The position numbers and the translations under genes are program-made. DNA of 64,000 nucleotides, taken from the NCBI RefSeq assembly GCF_013387475.1, contig NZ_VWNB01000007.1:62001-126000 (forward strand), given 5' to 3'. Positions 37,343 through 52,119 of the stretch are shown piece by piece. How positions within the stretch are numbered: the stretch's first letter is position 1; every line of letters begins with the position of its first letter. The stretch comes from Mariprofundus sp. KV (lineage in GTDB: Bacteria; Pseudomonadota; Zetaproteobacteria; Mariprofundales; Mariprofundaceae). The notes below the pieces were generated by a model. That model made no database searches. It was not told the origin of the DNA and worked only from the letters and a program-made list of their open reading frames with translations.

Positions 37343-37434
37343 GTCTCTCTCAACCGTGCCTTTGCTCCTGCCAACAACCTGATCCGCCTCTGCTACATAC
37401 CTCCAGCCACACAAAACCCAATCCGCTCAAAAAT

Positions 37435-37450
37435 TAGCACGCTTCTTGCT
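37435..37450 (+). promoter_or_regulatory. Candidate sigma54 promoter for the motA-fli operon
   Basis: TAGCACGCTTCTTGCT matches the sigma54 pattern TGGCAC-N5-TTGCW except for A in place of the first G at -24. The GC at -12 has correct spacing. Transcription would start near 37462, about 60 bases before motA. No obvious enhancer-type dyad was found upstream. Confidence 0.5.
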
Positions 37451-37523
37451 AACTTGTGATAAAAGTAAAACGCCCATCGCTATGAAGGGCCATGAATCAT
37501 AAGACGTCTTGTGGGAGGTTACT

Positions 37524-38282
37524 GTGGATATTGCAACTCTGATCGGCATTGTAGTCGCATTCGGCCTGGTGGTCAGTGCCATTGGTGGAGGTATCTCAAG
37601 TTTCATTGATCCCCCTTCTATGCTTATTGTTATTGGCGGTACGGTCGGCGTACTGCTGGTTGGATATCCTCTTAAAAACTGTATCGGCGTTATCGGCGTG
37701 GTCATGAAAACCTTCATGTACAAAGTCGACACCGGGCCTGAAGTGATCAGTAAACTGGTAGAGCTTGCACAGATTGTACGCAAAGACGGAATTTTGGCGC
37801 TTGAGAGTGAAGTCAAAACCATCGACAACGCCTTCATGGCCAAAGGGCTGCAGATGGCCATTGACGGCCAGGAGCCTTCAGCCATTGAGGATATCCTCTA
37901 CATGGAGATGGATAAAGTTTCCGAACGCCACTCCAGGGGTGCAGATATGTTCACCGCCCTTGGCACCTACGCCCCATCGATGGGCATGATCGGTACGCTG
38001 GTCGGTCTGGTGTTGATGCTGCAAAACATGAGTGACCCCTCATCGATCGGCCCCTCGATGTCTATCGCACTACTGACAACCTTTTATGGCGCCCTGATGG
38101 CCAATATTCTTTTCCTGCCCATGGCAGGCAAGCTCAAGACACGCAGCAAAGAGGAGCTGCTGATTCATGAGATTGTGCTGGTTGGCATTCAATCACTCGT
38201 GATTGGTGAGAATCCCCGCATCATGGAGTCCAAACTGCTCGGCTATCTGCCTCCGAAAGAGCGCGTCTCCTCCTTCGAATAA
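37524..38282 (+). CDS. motA: Flagellar motor stator protein MotA (PomA-like length)
   Basis: 252 residues from GTG 37524, which follows GGAGG by six bases; an in-frame TTG 15 bases earlier is less likely. Four membrane helices are predicted: two near the N-terminus, then a cytoplasmic loop, then the TM3/TM4 pair. The conserved prolines are present in YAPSMGMIGTLVGLV (TM3) and FLPMAGKL (TM4). MotA forms the ring of the stator around the two MotB chains. The size is closer to PomA (253) than to E. coli MotA (295). Two motB-like genes follow. Confidence 0.93.
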   Translation: MDIATLIGIVVAFGLVVSAIGGGISSFIDPPSMLIVIGGTVGVLLVGYPLKNCIGVIGVVMKTFMYKVDTGPEVISKLVELAQIVRKDGILALESEVKTIDNAFMAKGLQMAIDGQEPSAIEDILYMEMDKVSERHSRGADMFTALGTYAPSMGMIGTLVGLVLMLQNMSDPSSIGPSMSIALLTTFYGALMANILFLPMAGKLKTRSKEELLIHEIVLVGIQSLVIGENPRIMESKLLGYLPPKERVSSFE

Positions 38283-38306: not shown

Positions 38307-39080
38307 ATGGCTAAAAAAGATAAAAAACCGGCACCTCTGCCCTATCCCGCTGATCCGGGTGCAGCTCTGTTTCTGGAGCTGATGATGCAGATGCTGGCCT
38401 TCTTTATCCTGCTCACCTCCTACGCGGTGATTGTGGAGGATAAGCGTCTGGCTGCGATGGGCTCACTGGCTGGCACATTCAACCCGATGCCTCGCGGCGC
38501 CAACCTCTCTGATGGTGAAGGGCCGGCCCTGCCAACCCGTGATATTGTCGATGGCTCCACCGCACCGAAACGGACCGCCAAAGAATTGACAGACATCTCC
38601 AAAGATCTCGGCATGGAGAACTCAGTGCAGGTGTTGCCACTGGATCAGGATACCGTGCAGGTTCGCTTCGATGAACATATCGCCTTCACCTCAGGCGGTG
38701 TTGAGCTGGCTGCCGAAGCGATGCCGTTGATTGATCAGTTGGCAAACAGCTTTAAAAAGCCGGAAGTGATCGAAATTCAGGTCGAAGGCCATACCGATGA
38801 CACACCACTACGTGGCGGCAGCTACCCCTCCAACTGGGAGCTTTCGGCAGCCCGTGCGATGAGTGTGTTCCATGCTCTGGCAGAACGGGGCGTTCCGGTC
38901 GGTCGCATGACTGCAGCCGGCATGGGCGACAAACACCCCGTCAAAGATCGACCGGATCTGAGCAGGCGGGTCGATATTACCCTTAAGTTCCGTCCTGTTA
39001 CAGATGACTCTCCAATCCAGAAAGGCAATATTCAGCAGCTGCAACGTCCGGCGATTGCACCACCACGGAGCTCCTTCTAA
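38307..39080 (+). CDS. MotB-like stator protein with Glu at the proton-binding position
   Basis: 257 residues. One membrane helix (about 21-43) and a C-terminal OmpA-type peptidoglycan-binding domain (VEGHTDDTPLRGG, NWELSAARA, SRRVDI). Aligned on the helix with the second copy (FLELMMQMLAFFILL versus FADLVSLMLTFFILL), the position of the universal channel Asp is Glu24. Its stop overlaps the next motB gene by one base, so the two are made together. It could form heterodimers with the second MotB, or be a structural or tuning subunit. The name motB is withheld because of this change. Confidence 0.85.
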   Translation: MAKKDKKPAPLPYPADPGAALFLELMMQMLAFFILLTSYAVIVEDKRLAAMGSLAGTFNPMPRGANLSDGEGPALPTRDIVDGSTAPKRTAKELTDISKDLGMENSVQVLPLDQDTVQVRFDEHIAFTSGGVELAAEAMPLIDQLANSFKKPEVIEIQVEGHTDDTPLRGGSYPSNWELSAARAMSVFHALAERGVPVGRMTAAGMGDKHPVKDRPDLSRRVDITLKFRPVTDDSPIQKGNIQQLQRPAIAPPRSSF

Positions 39081-39778
39081 TGGCCAAGCGGAAAAAGTGG
39101 CCGGTCGAATACCAGCCCAACACCGAAGCGTGGATGACCACCTTTGCCGATCTGGTCAGCCTCATGCTCACCTTTTTCATCCTGTTGATCTCCATGTCCA
39201 CGATGGATAAAACCGGCCTTGCCGATATCGAATCCTCATTCACCAAAGCCGTATCTGTGCTTAACGCCGGTTCAAAAACCGAGCTGCAGATCATGCCGCC
39301 CATTGCCATGCAGAAGCTGGTCTCGGCCAAAGAGCTGATGCTGGCCATGCGCCAGAACAGCAAGGCGATGCTGCAAAACAGCACCCTCGAGCACAAAGTG
39401 AAGGGCGTCATCATCAAAGATCGTCTCTATCTGCGCATTCCTGACACCACCCTGTTTGAGAAGGGCTCTGCCGAACTTAAGCCGGATCATATTGAAGCAC
39501 TGAAAAAACTAGCCCAGATGCTGGCTATCACACCGGGAAACATACGCATTCAGGGACATACCAACGAGAATCTTGATCTGGCTGACAGCCAGTTTGCAGA
39601 CCCCTGGACACTCTCACTGGCCAGAGCGGCATCAGTCTTGCATATACTCGAAGATGAAGGGGTCAATCCGGGGCGTTTGTCTATGGTTGGCTACGGTCCT
39701 TCGCAGCCGATTTCGACCGAGGCAACCCCTTTCGGACGCAGTAAAAACCGGCGCGTAGAGATTATGGTTTATAAATAA
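39080..39778 (+). CDS. motB: Flagellar motor stator protein MotB (canonical)
   Basis: 232 residues. The membrane helix FADLVSLMLTFFILL has the canonical ion-binding Asp24, followed by a plug/linker and an OmpA domain (IRIQGHTNENLDL, PWTLSLARAASVL, SKNRRVEIMV). It anchors the stator to peptidoglycan and carries the ion through the channel. It is coupled to the preceding Glu-type copy. Whether H+ or Na+ is used cannot be told from sequence alone. Confidence 0.92.
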   Translation: MAKRKKWPVEYQPNTEAWMTTFADLVSLMLTFFILLISMSTMDKTGLADIESSFTKAVSVLNAGSKTELQIMPPIAMQKLVSAKELMLAMRQNSKAMLQNSTLEHKVKGVIIKDRLYLRIPDTTLFEKGSAELKPDHIEALKKLAQMLAITPGNIRIQGHTNENLDLADSQFADPWTLSLARAASVLHILEDEGVNPGRLSMVGYGPSQPISTEATPFGRSKNRRVEIMVYK

Positions 39779-39826: not shown

Positions 39827-40348
39827 ATGGCAGATAAAGAGGAAAAGAAAGAGGAAGGCAAATCATCAGGTGGCGGGCTACTTCCGATCATCAATCTTGT
39901 GCTGCTGGTGCTGGTGCTTGCCGTGGGTGGATTTATTGCCTGGAAAATGATCAGCATGGACTCAGCCCCCACCAGCAGTGATAAAGCAGCCGTTGAGCAG
40001 ACTGATGATACCGCCATCCCTGAAGCTGAGGATGAGAGTGATGAGCCACCGGTGCTGATCGACATTGAAAATATCACGGTCAACCTTGCCGATACCGACC
40101 AGAGCCGCTTTCTACGTGCCCAGATCAAACTTGAGGTGCGTAACGAAGAGGCAAAGCTGAAGGTTGATGAGAACATGGTTAAAATCAATGACATGATCAT
40201 CACCATCCTGGCCAGTAAAACATTTGATCAGATCAGAACTCCGCAGGGTAAATATGCCCTGAAAGAGGATCTGATCTACCGTATGAACCGGATTGTCGGT
40301 GGTAAGCCGATCAAGAATCTCTACTTCACCGACTTTGTATCACAGTAA
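39827..40348 (+). CDS. fliL: Flagellar basal body-associated protein FliL
   Basis: 173 residues: short charged N-terminus, one membrane helix (about 21-43, LLPIINLVLLVLVLAVGGFIAW), an acidic linker and the periplasmic FliL domain (LIDIENITVNLADTDQSRFLRAQIKLEV...LASKTFDQIRTPQGKYALKEDL). FliL rings surround and stabilise stators. It has a strong ribosome site (GGAGGAG) and sits between the motor genes and fliM, as in many bacteria. Confidence 0.93.
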   Translation: MADKEEKKEEGKSSGGGLLPIINLVLLVLVLAVGGFIAWKMISMDSAPTSSDKAAVEQTDDTAIPEAEDESDEPPVLIDIENITVNLADTDQSRFLRAQIKLEVRNEEAKLKVDENMVKINDMIITILASKTFDQIRTPQGKYALKEDLIYRMNRIVGGKPIKNLYFTDFVSQ

Positions 40349-40376
40349 TGAAAGCGACTGTTAAAAGAGGCCTGGT

Positions 40377-41369
40377 ATGAGTGAACCCATCCTTGCACCG
40401 GAGGAGATTGAGGCGCTGATGGCAGAGGTCGGGCCATCTGAGCATGCTGATGCAATTTTTGCCGCTCTGCCTCCGATCAAGCAGCCTGAAAAGGTCGACA
40501 AATTTCTCTTTGCTGGCAGCGATGAGGATAGTCCCGAACGATATCCGATGTTTGTTAATCTGCAGGAGCGACTGACCGAGATGCTCGATGAGCAGTGGAA
40601 AGAGCTGTTTAGACGCGATATCTCTGTGCATGTGCAGGAGCTTGCCAGCTCTGTTTATAAAGATCTGATCACCACCGATACCCCCCAGGTCTATTTTGTA
40701 TTTGAAGTAGAAGGCAATGGCCGCATGATGGTCACCTTTGACACCGCCATGATTGTCGCATTCGTTGATGCCATGCTCGGTGGTGATGGCGAGTCCAGTG
40801 AAAACCCTCAAACCCTTTCGCCTGTTGAACTCAGGCTCAGCAGGCGCATCGCAGAGAAGATCGGCAACACCCTGAGCAACCTCTGGAAGCCGGTTCAGCC
40901 GCTAACATTTGAAGTCTACAAGCTCGACTATGACCCGCAGTTTCTGGCGGTAACCAGTGCGATGGAGAAGTGCTTCTCAACCCTTTTCGATGTAAAAATC
41001 AGTGAATCCCAGACAGGTAAGCTCGGCGTACACTACCCACGGCCATTCCTTGAACCGATGCTGGAGAGTCTGCGCGTCACCGTGAGTGATGAACCTTCAG
41101 AAACCGACACCGAGTGGACTGATGCCCTGATGGATCGCCTCTCAAGCACACCTGCCTCCCTGCGCTTTGAGCTCGATCGCTGCCAGATCAATATCGGCAC
41201 ATTTCTGGCACTCAAGCCGGGAGACTTTTTACCCATCAAAACCAAAGCCAATGACCCCTGCAAACTGTGGATTGAAGATATCCCCATCTTCAAGGCCCGC
41301 CCCGGTGAAAGCGACGGCGTACTGGCTGCAGAGCTTATAGAACCCATTCATTCCGGAGGTAAGTCATGA
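40377..41369 (+). CDS. fliM: Flagellar motor switch protein FliM
   Basis: 330 residues. The N-terminal CheY-P-binding peptide ILAPEEIEALMAEV resembles LSQAEIDALL of E. coli, so CheY control is expected. The middle CheC-like domain (about 60-240) includes the GGDGE motif (LGGDGESSENP), and the C-terminal domain is of SpoA type. It is part of the C-ring that sets rotation direction. Its stop overlaps fliN. Confidence 0.95.
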   Translation: MSEPILAPEEIEALMAEVGPSEHADAIFAALPPIKQPEKVDKFLFAGSDEDSPERYPMFVNLQERLTEMLDEQWKELFRRDISVHVQELASSVYKDLITTDTPQVYFVFEVEGNGRMMVTFDTAMIVAFVDAMLGGDGESSENPQTLSPVELRLSRRIAEKIGNTLSNLWKPVQPLTFEVYKLDYDPQFLAVTSAMEKCFSTLFDVKISESQTGKLGVHYPRPFLEPMLESLRVTVSDEPSETDTEWTDALMDRLSSTPASLRFELDRCQINIGTFLALKPGDFLPIKTKANDPCKLWIEDIPIFKARPGESDGVLAAELIEPIHSGGKS

Positions 41370-41668
41370 CTGATGAACCACATACTGCTGAAGCAGACAA
41401 CGCTCAAAAAGCCAACCTTGAGGCTATTATGCATGTGCCTCTGGAGATCAGCGTGGAGCTGGGGCGCATTCAGCTGCCGCTGCATGTTATCGCCCGCATG
41501 AACAGAGGCATGGTGATCGAGATGAACAAGGACGCCAATGCAGAGGTTCAGATCCTGGCCAACGGCAGCATCTTCGCTAAAGGTGAGGTTGTTTCAACCG
41601 GTGACAAACTCGGTGTACGCATCACCGAAATCGTTCCTGCCTCAGCCCGTATCGACACGCTCTCCTGA
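41366..41668 (+). CDS. fliN: Flagellar motor switch protein FliN
   Basis: 100 residues, essentially one SpoA (surface presentation of antigens) domain: MHVPLEISVELGRIQLPLHVI ... LANGSIFAKGEVVSTGDKLGVRITEIV. It forms the lower C-ring with FliM. The start overlaps the fliM stop by 4 bases (ATGA). Confidence 0.95.
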   Translation: MTDEPHTAEADNAQKANLEAIMHVPLEISVELGRIQLPLHVIARMNRGMVIEMNKDANAEVQILANGSIFAKGEVVSTGDKLGVRITEIVPASARIDTLS

Positions 41669-41688
41669 AACCATCCCTGCGCTGAACC

Positions 41689-42000
41689 ATGGACACAAAC
41701 CTCATTTCGATGGTCTTACAATCGCTGCTGGCACTAGCAGCGGTGTTAGGGCTGTTTGCCCTGATGATCTGGGGTATGAAACGTTTTCAGCTGCATACAG
41801 GCGGCCCTGTTCAGCGTGACTTCAAGGTTGTTCAGCGTATCCATATTGATAACAAAAACAGCATCATCGAGGTGCGCCATCGCGGCGTTCACTATCTGCT
41901 CGGCCTCTCTCCCGGAGGCATGACCCAGTTGCGGGCAGAAGATGCCCTGCCTGCAAGCAGCCAGATCAACGAATCCACTGCCGAGAAGAAGGTTTCATGA
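41689..42000 (+). CDS. fliO: Flagellar biosynthesis protein FliO
   Basis: 103 residues. One N-terminal membrane helix (about 7-28) and a cytoplasmic beta-rich domain (FKVVQRIHIDNKNSIIEVRHRGVHYLLGLSPGG) typical of FliO. It helps assemble the FliP/FliR core of the export gate. Its stop overlaps the fliP start by 4 bases. Confidence 0.88.
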   Translation: MDTNLISMVLQSLLALAAVLGLFALMIWGMKRFQLHTGGPVQRDFKVVQRIHIDNKNSIIEVRHRGVHYLLGLSPGGMTQLRAEDALPASSQINESTAEKKVS

Positions 42001-42746
42001 AAAAAGAGCTACTGCTACTACCGCTGATCCCTGCTGCGCTTATTTTCCCTCAGCTGGTCGCTGCGGCTGATATTCCAACCCTCTCATTAAGTCTCGGTGA
42101 GGCAGAAGATCCGGATTCATGGTTCACCGGTCTGAAGATTATTGCACTGATGACAGTGCTGACTCTGGCCCCCTCCATTCTGGTGATGATGACATCCTTC
42201 ACACGTGTACTGATTGTATTTGCCTTCCTGCGTCAGGCGCTGGGAACCCAGCAGTCCCCACCCAACCAGATTCTTGTTGGCCTGGCTCTTTTTCTTACCC
42301 TGTTCATTATGATGCCAGTGTGGCAAAAAATTGACACAGAGGCATTGACTCCCTATCTCAATGAAGAGATCAATCAGTCTGTTGCTGTCGATCGTGGCAT
42401 AGCTCCGCTACACCATTTTATGATGAATCAAACCCGCGAAGATGATCTGATCCTGTTCCTCAATGCAGCCAAACTGGAGAAGCCGGAAAAGGTTGAGGAT
42501 ATGCCACTGCATGTGCTTATCCCCTCGTTTGTCATCAGTGAGCTGCGCACTGCTTTTGAGATCGGCTTTCTTATCTATATCCCCTTTGTTGTGCTTGATC
42601 TGGTGGTAGCCAGCGTATTGATGAGTATGGGTATGATGATGCTACCCCCCATCATGATCTCACTGCCGTTGAAAATTATTCTTTTCGTACTGGTCGATGG
42701 TTGGCATCTGATCACTGCCAATTTATTGGCAAGTTTCAAATTCTGA
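41997..42746 (+). CDS. fliP: Flagellar export gate protein FliP
   Basis: 249 residues with a cleavable signal peptide (about 1-22, ending VAAAD), as is usual for FliP, and four membrane helices. Conserved blocks: TSFTRVLIVFAFLRQALGTQQSPPNQ (about 68), HVLIPSFVISELRTAFEIGF (about 170) and the C-terminal MMMLPPIMISLPLKIILFVL. FliP forms the pentameric core of the gate with FliQ and FliR. Confidence 0.96.
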   Translation: MKKELLLLPLIPAALIFPQLVAAADIPTLSLSLGEAEDPDSWFTGLKIIALMTVLTLAPSILVMMTSFTRVLIVFAFLRQALGTQQSPPNQILVGLALFLTLFIMMPVWQKIDTEALTPYLNEEINQSVAVDRGIAPLHHFMMNQTREDDLILFLNAAKLEKPEKVEDMPLHVLIPSFVISELRTAFEIGFLIYIPFVVLDLVVASVLMSMGMMMLPPIMISLPLKIILFVLVDGWHLITANLLASFKF

Positions 42747-42822
42747 TCGCTATAACCAGCCAATAGTCGACAATAAAAGCGAAATTCAGCTTTGGCCCCT
42801 GCCTTGCTTTTAAAGGTTTATT

Positions 42823-43092
42823 ATGGGACCTGATTCAGTTATTCAGATAGGAAGTGAAGCCATTAAAATGGTGCTGCTGATCTCCATGCCGATGCTCGGT
42901 GTGGCACTGGTTGTCGGTATCGCCATCTCCCTGTTTCAGGCCGTTACACAGATTCAGGAGATGACCCTGACCTTTGTTCCCAAAATTATTGCCGTATTTG
43001 CAGCCATTATCTTTGCTGCCCCCTGGATGACGGAGAGGATGGTAAGCTTCACACAGAACCTGTTTGCCATGATTCCCAACCTCACCAACTGA
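42823..43092 (+). CDS. fliQ: Flagellar export gate protein FliQ
   Basis: 89 residues, two membrane helices forming a helical hairpin (IKMVLLISMPMLGVALVVG; FVPKIIAVFAAIIFAAPWM), with the family block LFQAVTQIQEMTLTFVPK. FliQ packs around the FliP/FliR core. A 76-base gap separates it from fliP. A sigma54-like match in that gap lies too close to the start codon to serve it and is discounted. Confidence 0.95.
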   Translation: MGPDSVIQIGSEAIKMVLLISMPMLGVALVVGIAISLFQAVTQIQEMTLTFVPKIIAVFAAIIFAAPWMTERMVSFTQNLFAMIPNLTN

Positions 43093-43105
43093 CCGGATTT
43101 AAGCG

Positions 43106-43888
43106 ATGAATCTCCCCTGGCCTGAAATCGAACAGATTACCGTCGGCCTGCTCATTCTCCTGCGTGTAGGCGCCCTGGTGATCTTTCTGCCGGTACTGGG
43201 TCACCAACTGGTGCCACAGCAGGTAAAAGTCGGCTTGATTGTTCTGTTGAGTATTATCATCTATCCGATTGTCTCAGGCAGCGTCACGCTGATCCCGCTT
43301 GATCCGATTGCCTTCGGTGCCATTGCCATTCAGGAGATTCTGATTGCCGGTGCCATTGCCCTGTTCGGTCAGCTGATCTTTGCATCAGCTCAGTTTGCCG
43401 GTCAGCTCATCAGCTTCCAGATGGGTATGACCGTGGCCAATGTGTTTGATCCGACCACGCACAGTCAGCAGTCGGTTATCGGCCAGCTGGCCATGACACT
43501 GGCCATGCTGTTATGGGTTACAGTTGGCGCCCACTACATCTTTATCAGTGCCCTGATTGAGTCCTTCAGACTCTTCCCCATTGATCAGCCCTGGTCATTT
43601 CCCGGCCTGCTTGCACTCACCGATGCTGCGGCAGCAATGTTTGTACTCTCCCTTAAAATTGCCGCTCCGATCATGTTGCTGCTCACCTTTGTCTATATCG
43701 CGCTGGGTCTGGTCTCGCGTGCCGTACCACAGATTCAGGTCTTTTTTGTCAGCTTCCCGCTTACTGTCGGTCTGGGGCTTCTCGCCTTCGGTATCGGCAT
43801 GCCCGCCTTCATCTACCTGATGCACAACGCCTATGAGTCACTTGCTATGCAGGTGCCCATGTTTTTACGCCATCTGAGCGGCATATAA
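43106..43888 (+). CDS. fliR: Flagellar export gate protein FliR
   Basis: 260 residues, about six membrane helices, with family features: RVGALVIFLPVLG near residue 20, the QFAGQLISFQMGMTVANVFDP block (about 95) and a C-terminal region ending in AYESLAMQVP. FliR completes the FliP5QR export channel. It lies 13 bases after fliQ and 9 bases before flhB. Confidence 0.95.
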   Translation: MNLPWPEIEQITVGLLILLRVGALVIFLPVLGHQLVPQQVKVGLIVLLSIIIYPIVSGSVTLIPLDPIAFGAIAIQEILIAGAIALFGQLIFASAQFAGQLISFQMGMTVANVFDPTTHSQQSVIGQLAMTLAMLLWVTVGAHYIFISALIESFRLFPIDQPWSFPGLLALTDAAAAMFVLSLKIAAPIMLLLTFVYIALGLVSRAVPQIQVFFVSFPLTVGLGLLAFGIGMPAFIYLMHNAYESLAMQVPMFLRHLSGI

Positions 43889-43897
43889 GGAGCCCTG

Positions 43898-44968
43898 ATG
43901 GCTGAAGAACAGGATAAGAGTCAACAGACCGAAGAGGCATCTCCGAAGAAAATCGAAGATGCCCGAAAAAAAGGTCAGGTACCCAACAGTAAGGAGCCAT
44001 CCACGGCCATCACTTTTCTCACCCTCAGTCTGATTGTCGTTACCGGACTCGGCAGTTTTCTCGGCAATGCCATGATGGAGCTGATGCAGTTCCATCTGTC
44101 GGGGCAATCACACCTGGATGCCACCGGCGAAGGGGTACAGGCGCTGCTGATTATGGCCGGTGCTGATATCGCCACCATTGTACTGCCTATTGCCATCCCC
44201 ATTGTCATGCTGGGTGTTCTGGTCACCTTCATGGTGGCAGGGCCTGTATTCACCTTTGAGACCCTGAAACCGAAAATGGAGAAGATAAGCCCGATGAAGG
44301 GCTTTAAGCGCCTCTTCTCCACCAAATCACTGGCTGAATTCATCAAATCGGTTCTCAAAATGGTCGTTATCGGCGTTGCCTGTGCCACCGTGGTTGAAGG
44401 TTTATATGATGAGATCCAGCGCTCCTCATTCAAGGATCCCGAAGCGATCGCGGCACTGGCGATCGATGGCGGCATCCAGATTGTGACGCTGGCCGCCATT
44501 ATTTTCTTCTTTATCGCACTTGCCGATGTGCTCTATCAGCGCTGGGAGCATATGAAATCGATGCGCATGTCCAAGAAGGAGATCCGTGATGAGCATAAGG
44601 AGCAGGAGGGTGATCCGCAGCTGAAATCGAAGATCCGTCAGATACAGATGCAGCAGGCCCATAACCGTATGATGTCGGATGTGCCCAATGCTGACGTGGT
44701 TATTACCAACCCTACCCGTCTGGCCATTGCCCTCTCCTATAAACCAGGAACACCCGGAGCACCGAAGGTTCTGGCCATGGGCAAAGGCCATATCGCGGCA
44801 AAAATCAGAGAGATCGCACAGGAAAATCACATTCCGATGCGCGAAAACAAGCCTTTGGCAAGATCCTTGTTTAAGCAGGTAAGGGTTGGCGATGAAATTC
44901 CAGAGGAGATGTTTGAAGCCGTCGCCATTCTGCTTGCGGAGATCTTCCGTCTGAAGCAGAGATATTGA
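43898..44968 (+). CDS. flhB: Flagellar export switch protein FlhB
   Basis: 356 residues. The N-terminus QTEEASPKKIEDARKKGQVPNSKE is typical. Four membrane helices follow, then the cytoplasmic domain with the autocleavage motif NPTH, seen here as VVITNPTRLAIALSY: the residue after NPT is Arg rather than His. FlhB switches export from rod/hook to filament substrates after self-cleavage between N and P, which are both present. Confidence 0.95.
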   Translation: MAEEQDKSQQTEEASPKKIEDARKKGQVPNSKEPSTAITFLTLSLIVVTGLGSFLGNAMMELMQFHLSGQSHLDATGEGVQALLIMAGADIATIVLPIAIPIVMLGVLVTFMVAGPVFTFETLKPKMEKISPMKGFKRLFSTKSLAEFIKSVLKMVVIGVACATVVEGLYDEIQRSSFKDPEAIAALAIDGGIQIVTLAAIIFFFIALADVLYQRWEHMKSMRMSKKEIRDEHKEQEGDPQLKSKIRQIQMQQAHNRMMSDVPNADVVITNPTRLAIALSYKPGTPGAPKVLAMGKGHIAAKIREIAQENHIPMRENKPLARSLFKQVRVGDEIPEEMFEAVAILLAEIFRLKQRY

Positions 44969-45002
44969 GACGTTTGAGCGCAATAGAGGAGAAACTGAGC
45001 AG

Positions 45003-47087
45003 ATGCAAAAAACTGCAGCATTAACATTACAGAAGATCGGCAGACAGCCGGACCTGCTGCTGGCCATCGGTGTGCTCGGCATTCTGCTGGTAATGATGGT
45101 GCCGATGCCACTCTGGCTGATGGATGTGCTGCTGGCCGCCAACATCACCATCGGCATCCTGATTCTGCTCACCTCCATCTATGTGTTGAAGCCACTGGAG
45201 TTCTCGGTCTTCCCGTCCCTGCTGCTCTTAACCACCCTCTTCAGGCTGTCGCTGAACGTTGCCACAACACGTCTCATCCTGCTGCACGGGCAGGAGGGCC
45301 CTGCCGCTGCAGGCCATGTTATTGAAGGCTTTGGCCACTTTGTCGTCGGTGGTAATACCGTTGTCGGCCTGATCATTTTCATCATTCTGGTACTGATCAA
45401 CTTTGTCGTTATCTCCAAAGGCTCCACACGTATTGCCGAGGTGGCTGCCCGCTTCACCCTCGATGCGATGCCCGGCAAACAGATGGCCATTGATGCAGAC
45501 ATGAATGCAGGTCTGATCAACGAGGCGGAAGCGCGCAAGCGGCGTGAAAATGTTGCTCGTGAGGCAGAGTTCTACGGTGCTATGGATGGTGCATCCAAGT
45601 TTGTACGCGGTGATGCTGTGGCCGGTCTGATCATCACCATGATCAACCTGATTGGCGGCCTGATTATCGGTGTGATGCAGCATGGCATGCCGATCTCCGA
45701 TGCGATGTCAGTATTCAGCCTTTTGACGGTAGGTGACGGTCTGGTGTCACAAATCCCCGCTCTGGTGATCTCCACCGCGGCAGGTATCATCATTACCCGT
45801 GCCAGTAGCAACAAGGCACTGCCATTCGAACTTAAAACACAGTTCACCAACCATCCCAAGGTACATTTTGTCGCCAGTGGTGCCCTGCTGATGATGAGTC
45901 TGGTGCCCGGTCTGCCATTTCTGCCATTTCTCGTGCTTGCACTCGGACTCGGTGCCAGTGGCTGGTATCTGCATCTGGGAGAGCAGCAGCGCGAACTGAT
46001 GCCTGTGGCTGAAGAGGTCACAGAGGTTGCCGAACCGACACCTGAACAGGTACTCGATGAACTGCTGGTTGAAGACCCGATCCGCCTTGAGATCGGTTAT
46101 GGCCTGATCGACATGGTTGAGAACAGCCGCGAAGGTAATCTTCTTGATCGCATGAAAAAGGTGCGCCGTCAGATCACTCAGGAGATCGGTTTTGTACTGC
46201 CTCCTGTGCATATCAAGGATAACCTGCAGCTGGGTGTCTCCGATTATCAGATTCTCATTCGCGGTGCTGTGGTGGGCAAAGGTGAGGTTCGGCCCCGCAA
46301 CCTGCTGGCTCTGGAGAGTCAGATTACCGGCCCCGCTGTTGAGGGTATTGCAACACAGGAGCCGGCCTTCGGTCTGCCTGCGGTGTGGATTTCAGAAGAT
46401 AAGCGGCAACAGGCTGAACTCTCGGGTTACACCGTGGTTGAGCCATCAACCGTTATTATCACCCACCTGACTGAACTGCTGCGCTCCCAGGCCTCTGAGA
46501 TGCTCGATCGCACGCAGGTGCATGAGCTGCTTGATAAATTTTCACAGCGGCATCCGAAAGTGGTTGAAGAGATCGTACCGGCACAGGTGTCGGTTGGTCT
46601 GCTGCAGAATGTACTGCAACAGCTGCTGGCAGAGTGGGTACCGATTCGCGATCTGATGATTATCCTCGAATCACTCTCCGACAGCTCCGGCGGCAACAAC
46701 TCGCTGGATGATATGATAGAGAAGGTTCGTGTTCGCCTTGGCCGCACCATTACACAGCGTTACCTCAATGCTCAGGGCGAGCTCAACGTATTCATGCTTG
46801 ATGGCGAGCTGGAGCAGCGCATGACAGAGCGCGTCATGCAGCAACCGGGCTGGTCACTGCCGCTGGATATGGCGGAGTGGCAACGCTTTATCTCTCGCCT
46901 GAATGAGATCACCATGCAGTATGATGTGGATATTCCGGTGCTGCTGACCACGCCGCAGATCCGCTCCCATCTCTCACAATCACTGCGCAAAGTGATGACC
47001 CGGATTGTTGTACTCTCAATTACCGAAATCCCGCCACAGACCAATGTCCAGTCGCTGGCAAAAGTGAGCCTCTACGATGCGCATTAA
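45003..47087 (+). CDS. flhA: Flagellar export gate protein FlhA
   Basis: 694 residues. An N-terminal part of about eight membrane helices contains the FHIPEP-type blocks (LLTTLFRLSLNVATTRLIL, and a cytoplasmic loop MPGKQMAIDADMNAGLI...AREAEFYGAMDGASKFVRGDA). The C-terminal cytoplasmic domain (about 340-694) forms the nonameric ring that receives chaperone-substrate complexes. The 3' end overlaps flhF by 11 bases. Confidence 0.96.
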   Translation: MQKTAALTLQKIGRQPDLLLAIGVLGILLVMMVPMPLWLMDVLLAANITIGILILLTSIYVLKPLEFSVFPSLLLLTTLFRLSLNVATTRLILLHGQEGPAAAGHVIEGFGHFVVGGNTVVGLIIFIILVLINFVVISKGSTRIAEVAARFTLDAMPGKQMAIDADMNAGLINEAEARKRRENVAREAEFYGAMDGASKFVRGDAVAGLIITMINLIGGLIIGVMQHGMPISDAMSVFSLLTVGDGLVSQIPALVISTAAGIIITRASSNKALPFELKTQFTNHPKVHFVASGALLMMSLVPGLPFLPFLVLALGLGASGWYLHLGEQQRELMPVAEEVTEVAEPTPEQVLDELLVEDPIRLEIGYGLIDMVENSREGNLLDRMKKVRRQITQEIGFVLPPVHIKDNLQLGVSDYQILIRGAVVGKGEVRPRNLLALESQITGPAVEGIATQEPAFGLPAVWISEDKRQQAELSGYTVVEPSTVIITHLTELLRSQASEMLDRTQVHELLDKFSQRHPKVVEEIVPAQVSVGLLQNVLQQLLAEWVPIRDLMIILESLSDSSGGNNSLDDMIEKVRVRLGRTITQRYLNAQGELNVFMLDGELEQRMTERVMQQPGWSLPLDMAEWQRFISRLNEITMQYDVDIPVLLTTPQIRSHLSQSLRKVMTRIVVLSITEIPPQTNVQSLAKVSLYDAH

Positions 47088-50469: not shown

Positions 50470-52119
50470 TTGCCGGAACGGATATCTTCTTTGAACGCCC
50501 CTACCGACGCAACGGCGGTTCTGCTTACTGACAGCAACTCCCGGATCACCCGTATCAATCCTGCATTTACTGCATTAACCGGATATGCGGCTGAAGATGT
50601 AATCGGGCAGCGTTCAGCAACAGTCTACCTTCCTGCAGAGAACGAACCTGCCCATAGCTGCGTGGAACTTGAGACACTTAAGGAAAAAGGCATATGGAGT
50701 GGCAACATCACCCTGAAACATGCCAGTGGCAAGATCATCAACGGGCTGCAGACCACCGTCTCCATCGACAATGAGGCCGGAGAGATCTCCCACTTTATCC
50801 ATATCATTCAACCCCCGGAGTCTATGCCAGGGGAGCATCATCAAAAGAGCCAGCTGCCCAATCGTCAGCTGTTTAAAGAGGTGTTATCACAGGAGCTGAA
50901 AAACGCCCGCCGTAAACAGACCCAGCTTGGCGTGCTGTTGATAGATGTCGATCACTTTAAGGTAATCAATAATTTCCTCGGCTTTGAAAAAGGTGATGAA
51001 CTGCTGCAGATGATTTCCGAGCGCCTGAATAAGCAGCTGCGCGGCAATGATCTGCTGGCCAGCCTTGGCAGCAACCAGTTTGCCGTGCTGCTGCCCGAGC
51101 TCGCCCACCCTGAAGATGCAAGCATCGTTACCCGCAAGCTGATGAAAACACTCGAACGTGCATTTCAGATTGGCGGACAGGATGTTGTAGTCACCTTAAG
51201 TACCGGTATCGTCATCTTCCCCGGTGACGGCGACAATAGCGAATCACTTCTGCAACACGCCGAGAAATCGATGTACGACGTTAAAGCCGCAGGCCGTAAC
51301 GGCTATCAATTCTTCGAAGCATCCATTCATAACTCTGCACTCAATCGTCTGAGCATGGAAAGTGAGATGCGCAAGGCGATCGAACGCGAAGAGTTTGTGC
51401 TCTTTTACCAGCCACAGATCGATATTGAGAGTGGTTTGGTTGTCGGCATGGAGTCACTGATCCGCTGGATACATCCTGAAAAAGGCATGGTTCCCCCCTT
51501 CCACTTTATCCCGATTGCCGAAGAGACCGGCCTGATCGGCCCGATTGGTGAGTGGGTTATTTATGAGGCGTGCCGCCAGACCAAAGCCTGGCAGGAGGCC
51601 GGTGTGGGTGGCCTGAAAGTCGCCGTCAATCTCTCAGGTCGCCAGTTCACCGACAAACAGCTGCTTGAGAAGATCGCCACAACGCTTAAACAGACCGGAC
51701 TGGCGCCGGATTACCTTGAGCTGGAGATCACCGAAAGCACCATCATGAATGATATCGAGAGCACCATTAAGGTGCTGGAGGAACTCTCAGAGATGGGCAT
51801 GGCACTGGCCATTGATGACTTCGGTACCGGTTACTCCTCACTGAGTTATCTCAAACGCTTCCCCATCAATAAACTGAAGATCGATAAATCGTTTATCGAT
51901 GATGTGATCACCAGTGATGACGATGCCACCATTGTTGCGGCCATTATCGGCCTCTCACACAACCTCAAACTCAATGTCATCTGCGAAGGCGTTGAAGACA
52001 TTGATCAGCTTCACTGGCTGAAAGAGAACAAGTGTAATGAGATCCAGGGATACTTCTTCAGTAAGCCGCTTCCAGCCGATGAGTTCGAAGCCTTCGTCCG
52101 CGAAAGAAACGGCCTCTAA
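50470..52119 (+). CDS. PAS-GGDEF-EAL protein, likely c-di-GMP phosphodiesterase
   Basis: 549 residues. PAS (about 10-110, TDSNSRITRINPAFTALTGYAAEDVIG); a GGDEF domain (about 130-285) whose signature reads LGSNQF, so it is not expected to be a cyclase; and an EAL domain (about 300-549). The EAL domain keeps the catalytic set: GMESLIRW, NLSGRQF, ELEITES, IDDFGTGYSSL, KIDKSF, CEGVED and EIQGYFFSKP. It should hydrolyse c-di-GMP, favouring motility. No ATG fits; the start is a TTG at 50470, or at 50491. It is the last gene before the 361-bp regulatory gap. Confidence 0.88.
   Translation: MPERISSLNAPTDATAVLLTDSNSRITRINPAFTALTGYAAEDVIGQRSATVYLPAENEPAHSCVELETLKEKGIWSGNITLKHASGKIINGLQTTVSIDNEAGEISHFIHIIQPPESMPGEHHQKSQLPNRQLFKEVLSQELKNARRKQTQLGVLLIDVDHFKVINNFLGFEKGDELLQMISERLNKQLRGNDLLASLGSNQFAVLLPELAHPEDASIVTRKLMKTLERAFQIGGQDVVVTLSTGIVIFPGDGDNSESLLQHAEKSMYDVKAAGRNGYQFFEASIHNSALNRLSMESEMRKAIEREEFVLFYQPQIDIESGLVVGMESLIRWIHPEKGMVPPFHFIPIAEETGLIGPIGEWVIYEACRQTKAWQEAGVGGLKVAVNLSGRQFTDKQLLEKIATTLKQTGLAPDYLELEITESTIMNDIESTIKVLEELSEMGMALAIDDFGTGYSSLSYLKRFPINKLKIDKSFIDDVITSDDDATIVAAIIGLSHNLKLNVICEGVEDIDQLHWLKENKCNEIQGYFFSKPLPADEFEAFVRERNGL

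Follow-up and report, generated by a model that had tools for sequence, protein, structure and literature searches.

The flagellar gene cluster of Mariprofundus sp. KV encodes, behind a single motA gene, two unlike MotB-type proteins, the first of which (here MotB') lacks the channel aspartate that the second (MotB) retains. We favor, with moderate confidence, the reading that the two are obligate partners in a heteromeric stator (probably MotA5-MotB-MotB') that would have a full ion site and a neutral or weak one. Both genes are genuine, intact ORFs on the plus strand of the window (the whole 64-kb stretch of DNA analyzed). motB' occupies 38307 to 39080 (257 aa) and motB occupies 39080 to 39778 (232 aa); the stop codon of the former and the start codon of the latter share one base within TAATG at 39078 to 39082. 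They follow a PomA-like motA (37524 to 38282, plus strand; MotA_ExbB, E = 2.9e-31), whose best NCBIfam match is PomA, at a score under the PomA cut-off. A tandem of translationally coupled motB genes behind a single motA had been described in a first-pass annotation and was confirmed. Because GGAGG sits just before it, the motA start is probably GTG at 37524 and not the TTG at 37509 of the ORF list. Upstream of motA, a candidate sigma-54-like promoter site, TTAGCACGCTTCTTGCT (37434 to 37450, plus strand), is the best match in the window and the sole one in 64 kb with a single mismatch; at up to two mismatches, the pattern gave 7 matches against 4.6 expected over the 64 kb, and we treat the site before motA as a lead only. 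The order motA-motB'-motB-fliLMNOPQR-flhBA continues with more flagellar genes up to about 60.7 kb, and the ORFs from 39827 to 47087 (plus strand) are those that we take, from family knowledge plus matching, to be fliL, fliM, fliN, fliO, fliP, fliQ, fliR, flhB, and flhA. At 50470 to 52119, between fliA-like and flgF-like genes, lies a gene for a GGDEF/EAL-like protein with a PAS-like start. Elsewhere in the genome (L002:949-2561, contig 22 of G000), a third stator pair is made up of a MotA-like gene and a MotB-like gene, the latter with YLDLMTLLLALF and the Asp present.

The two B proteins share 25% identity, and each has an OmpA-like peptidoglycan-binding domain (PF00691; E = 7.6e-16 in MotB' and 4e-17 in MotB). 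The Pfam MotB_plug model scored MotB at 61.2 bits, above its cut-off, and MotB' at 21.7 against a cut-off of 24. MotB' is thus a motA-adjacent product of a flagellar cluster with the wall-binding domain of a canonical MotB, lacking the channel Asp and falling below the MotB_plug cut-off. Their transmembrane helices align ungapped, which places Glu24 of MotB' (FLELMMQMLAFFILL; codon GAG at 38376 to 38378, plus strand) and Asp24 of MotB (FADLVSLMLTFFILL) in one column, as the first-pass annotation had proposed; the two residues also share a column of a gapless helix in a joint alignment of 76 proteins. A slip of the alignment by one helical turn was ruled out, as the helix has no gap and the FF motif is in register across all groups. 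An AlphaFold model of MotB' alone was of low confidence (pLDDT 62); in a fold search restricted to the periplasmic domain, the model matched structures of MotB, PomB, and MotS.

The first relatives found were Zetaproteobacteria, such as Mariprofundus ferrooxydans PV-1. In this class, MotB' was present in 54 of 78 genomes and the downstream MotB in 55 of 78; the only genome with MotB and not MotB' was G066, where the match, from base 3 of a contig onward, takes in no more of motB than its end. Of the 54 distinct MotB' proteins in the class, 50 have Glu at the channel site and the other four have Gln, while all 51 distinct copies of the downstream MotB have Asp24. The motB' stop and the motB start lie -1 base apart in 25 loci, and only two of 54 loci have a spacing above 6 bases. 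Mean pairwise identity reached 90% for the MotB' helix versus 62% for its periplasmic domain, and 92% versus 64% for MotB. Since the MotB' helix is conserved like that of MotB, MotB' does not behave as a decaying copy. Furthermore, the Glu is encoded by GAA in 27 and GAG in 24 of the loci read. Taken with its presence in 50 of 54 proteins and the 90% identity of the helix compared to 62% of the periplasmic domain, the use of two codons argues that Glu24 is not a chance occurrence. Its conservation, which the earlier annotation had marked for checking, therefore extends well beyond the window sequence, and the possibility of a private change or a sequencing error was rejected on the same counts. 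The four Gln-type proteins are L027, L028, L158, and L161 (from G008, G012, G083, and G057), and Gln-type genes directly precede fliL-fliM-fliN-fliO-fliP (genomes L217 and L218). In L217 and L218, the motA-motB'-motB-fliL-fliM set is more divergent than in relatives, a possible sign that the flagellar cluster has been exchanged.

OmpA-like domains grip the diaminopimelate of the cell wall through an Asp and an Arg (D271 and R286 in Acinetobacter baumannii; PMC6572160). In class MotB', Asp164, Asn176, and Trp177 are invariant (54/54), and Arg183 is found in all 53 proteins with a residue at that position. In class MotB, the Asp position is D in 24, N in 19, S in 6, and G in 1 of 50 proteins, and the Asn of the wall signature is replaced in 50 of 50, with the Arg kept. 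Judged by these alignments, each zetaproteobacterial B protein holds one feature constant: MotB the channel acid, and MotB' the wall signature. Because the signature is invariant in one protein and eroded in the other, complementary roles are indicated. In Nitrospirota and Desulfobacterota, the wall signature is mostly intact in both B proteins, so that this split of roles is not general. Invariant wall-binding residues beside a variable channel residue would also suit a MotB' that stays outside the MotA ring, as an accessory wall-binding membrane protein anchoring or positioning ordinary MotA5-MotB2 stators. We regard this as unlikely, since the MotB' helix retains the FF-containing MotB pattern and is conserved like the MotB helix, whereas an anchor would need no such helix. 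It is scarcely credible that MotB' is a dispensable relic of duplication: its score below the MotB_plug cut-off would fit, but the helix and the wall-binding residues are strongly constrained, and MotB' is present wherever a class genome has the downstream MotB, one cut-off contig excepted.

To follow the pair beyond the class, we searched further genome sets, the phylum of each being taken from the locus used as the search center. Two loci, L048 (Nitrospirota) and L047 (Troglogloeales), have the order motA-motB'-motB with Ser and Ala, respectively, at the channel site, and searches around the L048/L047 genome gave more members, in which the MotB' site is Ser or Ala and the downstream MotB has Asp. 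In Desulfobacterota (the phylum of a Syntrophobacteria locus), 12 of 297 genomes match MotB' at E = 1e-55, and the ten proteins read have Ala or Ser, with Asp encoded by the next gene. In the joint alignment, the MotB' site is E in 7 and Q in 3 Zetaproteobacteria, S in 6 and A in 2 Nitrospirota, and A in 5 and S in 5 Desulfobacterota; the downstream MotBs are all D (10, 7, and 8, respectively), as are 23 of 23 other MotBs. Every downstream copy that was checked keeps the Asp, and the order motA-motB'-motB is common to members of the three phyla (Zetaproteobacteria, Nitrospirota, and Desulfobacterota). In about 320 sampled genomes of other Pseudomonadota outside Zetaproteobacteria, no MotB' was found at E = 1e-50. 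Aquificota yielded no MotB', the best matches read being ordinary MotBs with Asp, and the best matches read in the phyla of G833 (a Bdellovibrionia locus) and G094 (a Marinimicrobia locus) were likewise ordinary Asp MotBs. In a Troglogloeales locus (L163:2186-3625), a 480-aa ORF after motB' seems to fuse an extra OmpA-like part to an Asp MotB. Another tandem motB pair, in L029 (Pseudomonadota), has Asp in both proteins, is PomB-like, and falls outside the MotB' group in the tree.

When the full-length B proteins were placed in a tree, the MotB' sequences from all three phyla clustered together (100/99); the downstream MotBs clustered separately, along with Aquificota MotB2 (95/94), save one long-branch Desulfobacterota row. 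A smaller tree without Desulfobacterota agrees with this grouping. When the transmembrane part was removed, the free search gave 3 changes and did not recover a single origin of MotB'; the tree in which MotB' was held together had the higher likelihood and was not rejected (AU test, P = 0.73). With the periplasmic part alone, the free search gave 5 changes and again did not recover a single origin. The MotAs encoded beside MotB' formed one branch (90/92), apart from the MotAs of single-MotB loci and those of Aquificota, with one long row omitted. As this branch is seen in a separate protein, it points to one complex with MotB', and no other independent evidence speaks as clearly for membership of MotB' in the MotA complex; an external anchor would not need MotA partners with a branch of their own. 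The window locus shows every trait of the MotB' group, namely, the order motA-motB'-motB, an Asp-less MotB', an Asp MotB, and membership in the shared tree group. On the evidence of sequence, MotB' is an old MotB-like family without the channel Asp, always accompanied by a canonical MotB and by MotAs of their own branch. In a MotB' tree built without the helix columns, a single origin of Glu within the class was weakly supported (67/78), and the class member that branches deepest carries Gln. This is suggestive only: Glu may have arisen inside an already Asp-less lineage, through a single base change in a Gln codon rather than from an Asp.

In the 5:2 model of the stator, two B chains bind ions in turn, with one 36-degree step per ion (PMC9389320). 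In Borrelia, a D-to-E change of the channel Asp lowers motility and D-to-N abolishes it; in work cited in the same paper, Glu reduced motility in Escherichia coli and Salmonella, and Asn led to its loss in E. coli (PMC6663468). The D22N form of Campylobacter jejuni MotB was described as a mimic of the neutralized, proton-bound state (PMC9389320). On the basis of these substitution data, a Ser, Ala, or Gln chain can be seen as fixed in the neutral state and a Glu chain as neutral or weakly active. That Glu or Asn lowers or abolishes motility in ordinary homodimeric stators counts against our reading, as a stator with a single Asp would have to work differently. The earlier annotation had suggested a Glu/Asp heterodimer. 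The conserved Glu and the coupled, co-occurring genes support this in part, and of the readings considered a heteromer of MotB and MotB' fits the data best; the part that did not hold is Glu as a second acid standing in for Asp, as the site is also Gln (four Zetaproteobacteria) and Ser or Ala (Nitrospirota and Desulfobacterota). For the same reason, the shared feature is the loss of the ion-carrying Asp from one B chain.

Could the two B proteins instead form alternative homodimeric stators with one MotA (MotA5-MotB2 and MotA5-MotB'2), of which the Glu form runs more slowly or suits another ion or pH? Dual-stator species are known, and D-to-E stators keep reduced motility in Borrelia and, in the work cited there, E. 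coli and Salmonella (PMC6663468); nonetheless, such an arrangement is unworkable for the Gln, Ser, and Ala forms, and no class genome has one gene alone, save one cut-off contig. We consider it quite unlikely. Homodimers of the Ser, Ala, or Gln chains would have no ion-binding acid and are not expected to conduct, so that another chain is needed. It is very unlikely that MotB' serves as a nonconducting competitor or brake that regulates torque through idle stators. Asp-less B chains are expected to block ion flow, and Borrelia D24N stators still partly assemble (PMC6663468); on the other hand, the gene shares an operon with the adjacent motB in three phyla and shows no sign of being regulated separately, and complementary erosion of MotB is not expected of a brake.

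The strict pairing, the overlapping or close genes, the separate branch of the MotAs, and the constrained helix thus argue for a heteromer with MotB. In the heteromeric stator that we propose, MotB' would act as a stator protein of the B type, one that combines a MotB-like helix with a wall-binding domain and lacks the channel Asp. Its translation would be coupled to that of MotB, and the two would pair inside a single MotA ring (MotA5-MotB-MotB'). Asp24 of MotB would provide one full ion-binding site; MotB' would supply a second axle helix, neutral (Ser, Ala, or Gln) or at most weakly ion binding (Glu, as in the window genome), as well as a strong peptidoglycan anchor. As the ring turned, each MotA subunit would then account for a single main power stroke, and a full turn would take about 5 ions rather than 10; alternatively, the cycle would limp. 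We infer the physical pairing, the stoichiometry, and the ion steps alike from sequence, and the PomA-like MotA suggests Na+ as the coupling ion. More tentative, and in our estimate a little short of an even chance, is the broader proposal of an ancient, widespread stator class, an obligate heterodimer in which an Asp chain is joined by a permanently neutral or weak one (Ser, Ala, Gln, or Glu), so that ion sites and ions per turn are both halved.

Several known systems resemble the cassette in part. Dual stator systems carry two separate motAB pairs; like the window genome, with its third motB and that gene's own motA, they have more than one MotB per genome. They differ in having an A protein per B and Asp in each, whereas in the window two unlike B genes share one motA. 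The operon of Aquifex aeolicus has one motA with two motB genes (PMC4525482), and its MotA-MotB1-MotB2 is alike in that a tandem motB pair follows one motA; moreover, Aquificota MotB2 groups with the downstream MotB of the zetaproteobacterial cassette (96/89). However, both Aquificota MotBs read have the channel Asp, compared to one in the window cassette, and Aquificota MotA and MotB1 fall outside the MotB' cassette groups in the trees. The transmembrane and N-terminal regions of A. aeolicus MotB1 and MotB2 are reported to be 97% identical (PMC4525482). The 5:2 stators (Vibrio PomAB and the MotAB of Campylobacter and Clostridium) share the MotA/PomA-like A subunit and single-helix B chains bearing an OmpA-like domain, but their two B chains are identical and both have Asp, whereas the window pair has one Asp-less chain. 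In Myxococcus, one MotA-like protein, AglR, goes with two different MotB-like proteins, AglQ and AglS, which may form heterodimers (PMC9389320). The likeness lies in a single A protein with two unlike B proteins; by description rather than by sequence comparison, AglQ and AglS both have the Asp and belong to a gliding motor (PMC9389320).

Two motB genes per motA are thus already known from Aquifex; what is likely new here, though unproven, is a MotB-like partner without the channel Asp. In the titles, abstract openings, and passages on MotB paralogues or heterodimers of open papers, we found no Asp-less MotB, and since the literature covered was that of open papers, the novelty is graded in this way. 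A 2025 survey of MotAB evolution speaks of duplication for the A subunit only and makes no mention of a tandem, D32, or aspartate (PMC12505986), and a search of the open literature found no paper on D32N dominance. Asp-less MotBs may be missed, because the MotB set of a reconstruction study was limited to FAD, YAD, or LAD at the site (PMC7787011) and because MotB' scores below the Pfam cut-off.

Altogether, a residue thought universal for ion carriage is absent from a second MotB-like protein in three phyla. This suggests that cassette bearers drive their motors with lopsided stators in which only a single ion site is full, whereas the 5:2 model presumes two equal B chains that alternate as ion carriers. 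If this is true, a natural stator with a single full site would test the need for both Asp residues; it would set the ions per turn and the step size, at 72 degrees rather than 36, and would offer an evolutionary route to a change of gear ratio.
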